Assembly: GCA_028865615.1 (NCBI GenBank)
Contig: JAGWJT010000006.1
Coordinates: forward strand, 1-32,450
Source: Patescibacteria group bacterium
GTDB lineage: Bacteria; Patescibacteriota; Minisyncoccia; Phycocordibacterales; PALSA-1337
Length of the DNA: 32,450 nt
Direction of reading: 5' to 3'
In this document: one piece after another, positions 3,749-16,898 of the stretch
Layout of the letters: each line of letters begins with the position of its first letter
Position numbering within the stretch: the first letter of the stretch is position 1
Program-made: the position numbers and the translations under genes
The notes under the pieces: generated by a model
The model's input: the letters and a program-made list of their open reading frames with translations, nothing else
The model's database searches: none
What the model was told of the DNA's origin: nothing

Positions 3749-4528
3749 CTAACTACCGAACACCGCCATCGTCAAGGCGGCAATTGCGGCCGTTTCGGCG
3801 CGCAAGACTTGGGGGCCGAGGCAATAGACTGAGATTCCGGCTTTGTGAAACAGAGCGAGCTCGTCTGGAGACCAGCCGCCTTCAGGGCCTATGAATACAG
3901 CGAGGTTGCACCTCGATATACCAAGGTGCGACCTCGCTAAAAGCTCCCCTTCTGTGTGAAACGCCAATGCCAAGAAAGGTTCTCCGCCTGCCGGCTCAAA
4001 CTTCACTTTGGTGAAGTGCGACTTCTCTAAAGTGAAGTGCTCGTGACTAGACAGCCGACCGACGATCGCGGCAAGCTTTTCAATAGGCCATATATTTGGC
4101 ACATTTCCCCTGCCGCTCTGCTCGCTCGCCTCGACAGCGATCTTGCGGAGCCGTTCCATATTCAAGGATTTTTTCTCCGAACGATCCGCCAAAACCGGCA
4201 CTATGTCGGTAACACCGAGCTCTGTGGCTTTCTCTACGATCGTTTCAAAATTATCCTTTTTCACAACAGCCGTATACAGTGAAACCTGCCTAATCGGCAT
4301 ATACCGGCTAGGCGAAGGAGTCAGGTGCTCCAAAACTACGCGGTCGGCTCCGTCAAAACGGGCTATCGCGCCTTTGTAGTCCGAACCCGAACCGTCGAAT
4401 AGCACTATCTCGTCTCCGGCTTTCAGACGGAAAACCCGTCTAAGCTGGTCGACCAGCTCCCTCGACTCTATAGTCAGTTCGGAACGGTTCCCAATGGGTT
4501 CGGGGGTAAAGAAACGGTGCAGGCGCAT
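3749..4528 (-). CDS. rsmE: 16S rRNA (uracil-1498-N3)-methyltransferase
   Basis: SPOUT-fold enzyme that methylates N3 of U1498 in the decoding region of 16S rRNA using SAM. The N-terminal PUA-like segment (RLHRFF start, then LRRVFRLKAGDEIVLFDGSG) and the C-terminal knot motifs are clear: FIGPEGGWSPDE near residue 213 and LGPQVLRAETAAIAAL near the end. It starts 12 nt after clpP stops and is probably in the same transcript. At 259 residues it is slightly longer than usual. The extra residues fall in the region before the GPEGG motif, in two segments (EHFTLEKSHFTKVKF and ARSHLGISRCNLA) encoded by strongly palindromic DNA. These look like in-frame insertions; the motifs on either side are intact, so the enzyme is probably active. 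Confidence 0.93.
   Translation of the reverse strand: MRLHRFFTPEPIGNRSELTIESRELVDQLRRVFRLKAGDEIVLFDGSGSDYKGAIARFDGADRVVLEHLTPSPSRYMPIRQVSLYTAVVKKDNFETIVEKATELGVTDIVPVLADRSEKKSLNMERLRKIAVEASEQSGRGNVPNIWPIEKLAAIVGRLSSHEHFTLEKSHFTKVKFEPAGGEPFLALAFHTEGELLARSHLGISRCNLAVFIGPEGGWSPDELALFHKAGISVYCLGPQVLRAETAAIAALTMAVFGS
3900..3937. repeat. Palindromic element inside rsmE (arms 14 bp)
   Basis: Arms at 3900-3913 and 3924-3937 are inverted copies matching at 13 of 14 positions around a 10-nt loop. On the gene strand it encodes ARSHLGISRCNLA without breaking the frame. The core GTGCGAC (3927-3933) recurs in the neighbouring palindrome at 4015-4021. Confidence 0.85.
4000..4038. repeat. Second palindromic, partly duplicated element inside rsmE
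   Basis: Perfect 10-bp inverted arms lie at 4000-4009 and 4029-4038, and a smaller perfect hairpin with 7-bp arms lies at 4000-4006/4011-4017. On the gene strand it reads as two degenerate tandem units of about 21 nt, each beginning GCACTTCAC. It encodes the repetitive peptide HFTLEKSHFTKVKF. Confidence 0.8.
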
Positions 4529-10680: not shown

Positions 10681-10744
10681 AAAATTTCTAATTTTTAATT
10701 GACCTAATTTTTAGAAATTAGAAATTAGGTCAATTAGAAATTTT
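10681..10744. repeat. AT-rich inverted repeat sharing a 21-bp unit with 15651-15671
   Basis: The right arm (10724-10744) is the reverse complement of a 21-bp unit starting AAAATTTCTAATTGACC. The left arm (10681-10708) is the same unit with 7 extra bases after AAAATTTCTAATT. An exact third copy lies at 15651-15671. The hairpin fills the gap between tRNA-Gly and tRNA-Arg. Confidence 0.9.
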
Positions 10745-16295: not shown

Positions 16296-16898
16296 ATGCC
16301 TACTAATAAATCTCGCGCCGAGACCGGCCTTATCGTTCCTATGACGCACGAATTCATCGCGCGGCGTATTTTCTTCGTGCGAGGACAGAAAGTCATGCTA
16401 GACCGCGACTTGGCAGAGCTTTATCAAGTCGAGAACAAACGCCTTAACGAACAGGTCAAGCGCAACATCAGCCGTTTTCCGATAGATTTCATGTTCCAGT
16501 TAAATGCCCGGGAAGTGGATGCCTTGATGCGGTCGCAAATTGCGACCGCATCCGGAAAGCGTCGTAATATCAGGTTTAGGCCGTATGCCTTTACGGAATT
16601 GGGCATATCCATGCTGTCATCCGTGCTCAATAGCGAACAAGCGGTCCAAATGAATATCTTCATCATGCGCGCTTTCGTCAGGCTCCGTCGGATGGTATCG
16701 AGAAACAAAGACTTGGAGACCCGAGTAGATAAGTTAGAGATCAACCAGATGAAGCAAGAGCTCGGCTTGGCCGAAGTCTACGGCCACGTCAAAAAGTTCA
16801 TGCCACCACTTCACGGCCAGGATGATTTGATCATTCTGAACATTCTGTGTAATTGCACAATGCGCGAGGCATTTCATCTCGCCACTTGTATTGAATGA
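16296..16898 (+). CDS. ORF6N-domain protein
   Basis: The ORF6N domain, common in phage and CPR genomes and thought to bind DNA, is complete: FIARRIFFVRGQKVMLDRDL, AELYQVENKRLNEQVKRN, FPIDFMFQL, then FRPYAFTELGISMLSSVLNS and MNIFIMRAFVRLRRM. A coiled segment follows (LETRVDKLEINQMKQELGLA). I start at ATG 16296, 7 nt after an extended -10 box, giving 200 residues; the in-frame ATG at 16227 sits on the toxin stop codon and upstream of the promoter. After about residue 168 (KKFMPPL) the frame runs through antisense of the convergent gene, so the last 30 residues look accidental: the usual tail has been lost or replaced. Confidence 0.85.
   Translation: MPTNKSRAETGLIVPMTHEFIARRIFFVRGQKVMLDRDLAELYQVENKRLNEQVKRNISRFPIDFMFQLNAREVDALMRSQIATASGKRRNIRFRPYAFTELGISMLSSVLNSEQAVQMNIFIMRAFVRLRRMVSRNKDLETRVDKLEINQMKQELGLAEVYGHVKKFMPPLHGQDDLIILNILCNCTMREAFHLATCIE

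Follow-up and report, generated by a model that had tools for sequence, protein, structure and literature searches.

How a conserved gene for an rRNA methyltransferase came to carry two palindromes in frame is the question raised by this stretch of DNA from a Patescibacteria group bacterium. The window (the whole stretch analysed, 32,450 nucleotides) is contig 11 of a genome of 710,699 bases, and the gene is rsmE. The original prediction had described palindromic elements within a protein-coding gene, of a family that was not recognised; it was right in kind, and the elements were placed here as repetitive extragenic palindromic (REP) hairpins, including a REP doublet (REPIN), of the system of REP-associated tyrosine transposases (RAYT, also TnpA-REP). 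The stretch 3900-3937 is very probably a REPIN of a RAYT system, copies of which landed in frame and were kept as relics after an apparent loss of the RAYT.

Palindromes in rsmE

The features of the locus are as follows.
3749..4528, minus strand: rsmE, 16S rRNA (uracil-1498-N3)-methyltransferase, the host gene; open reading frame (ORF) of 259 amino acids, TIGR00046 match of 133 bits (cut-off 41)
3900..3937, no strand assigned: REPIN of two AGGT-NNN-ACCT hairpins, inverted to each other; from the sequence, the recurrence of the unit in the genome, and an architecture matching the RAYT-flanking hairpins of congeners
3903..3913, plus strand: REP unit 1, AGGT-TGC-ACCT (inner stem AGGT/ACCT, 3-nt loop); from the sequence and the genome pattern count
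3914..3923, no strand assigned: 10-nt spacer CGATATACCA, resembling TGATATATCA
3924..3934, minus strand: REP unit 2, AGGT-CGC-ACCT; from the sequence and the genome pattern count
4000..4038, no strand assigned: second palindrome ACTTCACTTTGGTGAAGTGCGACTTCTCTAAAGTGAAGT, weaker, a 21-bp tandem of AAGT-GCG-ACTT-type units; from the sequence, shuffles and loop comparison

By direct reading of the sequence, the arms of the first palindrome, 3900-3913 (GCGAGGTTGCACCT) and 3924-3937 (AGGTGCGACCTCGC), were paired at 13 of 14 positions around a 10-nt loop, and those of the second, 4000-4009 (ACTTCACTTT) and 4029-4038 (AAAGTGAAGT), at 10 of 10 positions with a 21-bp tandem repeat inside; the two palindromes lie 62 bp apart and have GTGCGAC in common. 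All of this, together with their position inside a conserved gene, agrees with the original description. No equivalent of the first palindrome was obtained in 100 shuffles of the gene, and a repeat like the second was obtained in 5 of 200, so that the second palindrome is marginal taken alone. The REPIN encodes A-R-S-H-L-G-I-S-R-C-N-L-A (about residues 198-210), directly before the SPOUT strand, and the second palindrome encodes residues 164-177. The closest RsmE among named records was that of a Candidatus Parcubacteria metagenome-assembled genome (61%). In an AlphaFold2 model of RsmE with a mean pLDDT (predicted local distance difference test) of 87, residues 168-180, corresponding to the second insert, were the only stretch below 50, and this loop is probably disordered; the loop of the first palindrome was short and modelled with good confidence.

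Copies of the hairpin in the genome

The pattern AGGT-YGC-ACCT was found in 8 copies in the 710,699 bases, against 0.68 expected (Poisson P = 6e-7). Two of the copies are in rsmE and two, in tandem, in trpS; the rest are mostly outside clear genes, typically as ATCAAGGTCGCACCTTGAT. The tandem pair in trpS codes for FGGRTSEGCTFKLPEP, at a position occupied in many congeners by FGETFKLPEP or a version longer by one residue; relative to the shortest congener form (FGETFKLPEP), 6 amino acids are added. Inverted doublets with a short spacer, the arrangement of a REPIN, were present at 3903/3924, at C7:9636-9667 (units 9636/9657) and at many positions in relatives. The spacer of the doublet at C7, TGATATATCA, is similar to that in rsmE and is also the spacer of CCG-type REPINs in congener G003, in which the same doublet has a different loop. 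In partial samples (pattern matches and sequence stretches), copies lay inside ORFs of at least 120 amino acids in 4 of 8 cases here, in 18 of 29 in G003 and in 0-2 of 4-6 in other samples. All these samples were small, and among the copies counted were some in RAYT genes and one or more matches due to chance.

In a genome of another family (G030:C4:92255), a hairpin was found that carries TTATCAAGGTGCGACCTTGATAAG, with core and inner arms identical to the intergenic copies of this genome; a shared loop type or a transfer is possible.

RAYT genes and flanking hairpins

A search of the genome and of relatives for the palindromes, as had been proposed, gave the dispersed copies described above and, in congeners and other genomes of the order, hairpins flanking RAYT genes. 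An ORF of G003 with YCLMPNHFHLAI, a Y1 (HuH) transposase, has the repeats on its flanks and also inside it, and throughout the genus the hairpins border long RAYT-like Y1 genes, not IS200-type Y1 genes. At 41 RAYT loci, 82 AGG-N5-CCT hairpins were counted in the flanks (2.86 per kb), versus 0.17 per kb farther out, a 17-fold difference, and 0.03 per kb at IS200-type Y1 loci. An origin from IS200/IS605 elements was rejected, since the hairpins are nearly absent at IS200-type Y1 genes of the same genus. The N5 loops varied among the RAYT loci (TTCAA, TCCGA, TCAGA, TCGAA, CAAGA, ACAGT and others).

Searched with a profile built from 11 RAYTs, 12 of 34 genomes in the genus had a RAYT, as did 110 of 197 sampled genomes of the order, over half of the latter, although Patescibacteria have minimal genomes, and the hairpins stand inside genes of replication, repair and translation. 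The RAYTs matched PF01797 above its cut-off, and NHxH and YxHLNP were conserved in the 11 proteins, in keeping with the Y1_Tnp fold. A search of PHROGs with the RAYT gave no match, and a sequence search for a solved structure gave nothing credible. In a tree of 40 RAYTs, those of the genus formed one clade (100/100) and the loop types were unclustered except CAAGA, so that the turnover of loops is quicker than that of the enzyme.

In many of the order's RAYT genes, an in-frame hairpin stands at nearly the same place, about 110 nt past the YNRG codons and before the HuH motif, as a rule with the RAYT's own loop type. The copy number of AAGGTNNNACCTT ranged from 0 to 18 within one genus and was 25 in G039, of another family.

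Loop specificity and hairpin architecture

Two exact patterns, with TCA and CCG loops, were counted in 21 genomes. The five genomes with a TCA-loop RAYT had 13, 9, 58, 6 and 20 dispersed TCA copies (106) against 0, 0, 0, 1 and 0 CCG copies (1), and the seven with a CCG-loop RAYT had 25, 65, 6, 12, 12, 26 and 34 CCG copies (180) against 1 TCA copy overall. In G003, which has two RAYTs that differ in loop type, copies of both types are dispersed. The table is thus nearly diagonal, and REPs with a cognate RAYT behave in this way. For loops other than YGC, dispersed copies numbered up to 65 per genome. The repeats, being genome-specific, were also considered as DNA-uptake sequences, and this was dropped because they flank RAYT genes and have their loop.

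Beyond the core, the arms varied among copies and yet paired above chance over about four positions: positions 1-4 were paired in 61, 59, 52 and 39 of the 82 hairpins, against about 40, 31, 26 and 24 if independent. Recognition of group 3 REPs in vitro depends on the loop and on a perfect stem, and little on the sequence of the lower stem (PMC8266576), which would explain arms that are variable but complementary.

RsmE loops and in-frame copies in other genes

RsmE was compared with its counterparts in the genus, which made 28 readable genes in all. Neither insert peptide was found in the other 27, and palindromes of like architecture occupied the same loop in several species: 10 of the 28 had AGG-N5-CCT palindromes in the loop before the SPOUT strand, and these differed in loop and arms (CTGGAGGTCGGACCTCCAG, TGCATAGGTCAGACCTATGCA, CCGAGGTGGAACCTCGG and others). 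Outside this loop, the 28 genes had one further copy in the other of the two loops and one bare core elsewhere. The comparison of sequences places the first element in a recurrent landing loop of RsmE. In G003, this loop is encoded by a REP read in another frame (RGGTSV), and in G011 it has 40 residues and three cores. G003 also has in-frame copies in LigA (a doublet), DnaE, PNPase, TsaE and an O-antigen ligase-like protein in addition to RsmE.

The original prediction had both palindromes encode extra residues, and this stood for the second, whose loop has 45 residues against 21-31 in 25 of 27 congeners, and hardly for the first, whose loop has 20 residues against 19-20 in 15 of 27. The first element mostly substitutes within a loop of near-constant length and adds little, and the second palindrome is the weaker, diverged case. 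The latter is probably, though not demonstrably, a diverged REP array belonging to the same family, a membership suggested by the GTGCGAC core and the 21-bp period that it shares with the first.

In the sibling species G021, the second RsmE loop carries on the minus strand CGTCATTCCGGCGCAGGCCGGAATCCAGAGTCAC, which has the look of a CGTC-type REP and is of another family, with a further hairpin, ACCCCGTCGAAGGACGGGGT, adjoining.

RAYT-less site at gyrA and proposed mechanism

The profile search gave no RAYT match in this genome. In G020, G001, G129 and G003, a RAYT lies between gyrA and the next gene; gyrA is 77-82% identical and the neighbour is the same. Here, about 120 bases holding three hairpins, without a RAYT, separate gyrA from that neighbour. 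The simplest reading is that the site is, apparently, the scar of a RAYT deletion; the contig runs through the site without a break, which makes an assembly gap improbable. If the RAYT was deleted at gyrA, the copies in rsmE and trpS would be relics.

In the proposed mechanism, the RAYT, a HuH/tyrosine Y1 transposase, would bind the hairpin on single-stranded DNA by reading its loop, cut beside it and join it at another site. While the system was active in this lineage, as it presumably once was, copies that fell in frame within a tolerant surface loop would have persisted and been translated, with no effect on the function of RsmE. The gyrA-adjacent RAYT would then have been lost, leaving the hairpin scar, and the copies in rsmE, in trpS and between genes would now be immobile relics, those in the genes merely encoding loop residues. 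The system offers a clear instance of mobile DNA writing new protein loops.

A wider reading, to which we give about an even chance, is that a patescibacterial branch of RAYTs and REPs dropped the GTAG guide and uses three to five loop nucleotides under a fixed AGG/CCT cap as the address; that loops turn over fast and the enzyme is inherited vertically within a genus, several of the genes at gyrA; and that the same surface loops of essential proteins (RsmE, and the RAYT as well) are remodelled by the hairpins again and again. If so, mobile DNA would be a regular source of loop diversity in reduced genomes. The genomes of the order offer a natural set of enzyme-hairpin pairs whose specificity seems to depend on a few bases of the loop, with no GTAG guide, an element regarded as central to the cleavage of REPs.

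Alternative explanations

Several observations weigh against the assignment of the rsmE palindromes to a mobile REP family. The first copy adds about 1 residue at most to its loop, so that no clean insertion is visible there. An RSDL-like peptide occurs without palindrome in a few congeners (e.g. G002), so that part of the loop may predate the present element and the loop peptide is possibly of older origin; the same peptides without palindromic DNA in distant lineages, which would have spoken against insertion, were not seen. The loop of the G011 rsmE copy differs from that of the one RAYT found in that genome, and some RAYT-bearing congeners have few dispersed copies. None of the RAYT loci examined had a YGC loop, so that a cognate enzyme for the copies in this genome is only putative. 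The sole family matched by the RAYTs was the NCBIfam REP transposase model NF047646, and their scores of 27-40 bits fell short of its cut-off (80). The hairpins have no canonical GT[AG]G tag at their foot (one lies within 12 nt in 4 of 48 oriented copies, at no fixed position), and the rsmE hairpins were accordingly classed as a variant and not as canonical REPs. Finally, the inner stem of the second palindrome, AAGT/ACTT, differs from AGGT/ACCT.

One alternative is that the rsmE palindromes were made in place, an ancestral loop peptide (R/K)SD(L/I) encoded as AGG-TCN-GAC-CTN being by chance a near-palindrome that template-switch repair of quasi-palindromes later perfected without any insertion. 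Loops of 19-20 residues are found in many species, with a palindrome or not, and RSDL- or KSDI-like residues occur in loops that lack one (G002, G021). An origin in place is nevertheless improbable in view of the different reading frame of the REP in G003, the 40-residue loop with three cores in G011, the loop, spacer and doublet architecture common to this genome's copies in and outside rsmE, and the real insertion of 6 amino acids given by the same units in trpS. Arms that vary at positions 1-4 and stay complementary, as if folding were needed, would also fit immobile RNA or DNA hairpins under selection, namely terminators, attenuators or protein-binding sites with a regulatory role in coding DNA. 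However, recognition of the folded hairpin by a RAYT accounts equally for this complementarity (PMC8266576), and the hairpins flank RAYT genes, have the RAYT's loop genome-wide, differ in place and loop among congeners, and are found in either orientation and in genes unrelated to one another; we consider selected hairpins very improbable. Terminators in particular were rejected on account of both orientations and the coding positions.

A separate matter, compatible with a REPIN at 3900-3937, is whether the second palindrome is unrelated to the first, a tandem repeat that arose by chance or grew independently within a disordered loop. Its frequency among the gene shuffles, an inner stem outside the family consensus and the other palindrome family in the same loop of G021 would suit such an origin; the core and period held in common with the first doublet and an undoubted REP in the same loop in G003 would not, and we regard it as a real possibility that we tend to doubt.

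Relation to known systems

The closest known systems are those of REPIN/RAYT group 3, e.g. the REPtron Sm of Stenotrophomonas maltophilia (PMC8266576, PMC3116915), which share short perfect palindromes with a 3-nt loop, inverted doublets, dispersed copies, and a Y1 HuH transposase gene bordered by cognate copies. The sequence of the loop was critical to recognition in vitro for REPtron Sm (PMC8266576), and loop specificity is seen here in cross-genome counts. The present hairpins differ from group 3 in having no GT[AG]G foot tag, in the AGG/CCT conserved at the top of the stem, in a divergent RAYT and in many coding copies.

In-frame REPs have already been reported in other bacteria, many of them in replication and repair genes (PMC3733652). 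These intragenic GTAG and CGTC REPs and REP dimers likewise lie in housekeeping genes, many for DNA synthesis or repair (DNA ligase, DnaE, tRNA synthetases), but they belong to other families and hosts (O. terrae, Rickettsia, Xanthomonas and others), and they are tagged there and untagged here. In-frame REPs within RAYT genes have been reported for TnpA-REP subclass 2.4 (PMC6006769), a feature shared with the many RAYTs here that carry one; unlike in that subclass, the recurrent in-gene hairpin here precedes HuH. The main text of PMC6006769 does not mention candidate-phyla taxa. Rickettsia palindromic elements (RPE), which are alike by description, are also in-frame palindromes in many genes and are tolerated by the proteins; RPE-4 and RPE-6 are reported to be CGTC-type REPs, for which no dedicated transposase was found (PMC3733652). 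No description of RAYTs or palindromic repeats in Patescibacteria was found in the open-access literature. Thus the kind of REP is known, and in-frame REPs are known elsewhere; the untagged version in candidate phyla appears to be undescribed. For annotation, odd peptides such as RSDL, RGSTS, EVEPR and RSHL in these proteins can be REP-encoded.

Other palindromes in the window

At 16526-16552 of the window, a perfect 13-bp hairpin was found, GATGCGGTCGCAA-N-TTGCGACCGCATC, which has GGTCGCA and is without the AGGT-NNN-ACCT core. The longest inverted repeats of the window, AT-rich and with arms reaching 24 nt (AATTTTTAATTGACCTAATTTTTA), lie at 10681-10744 and are unrelated to REPs.
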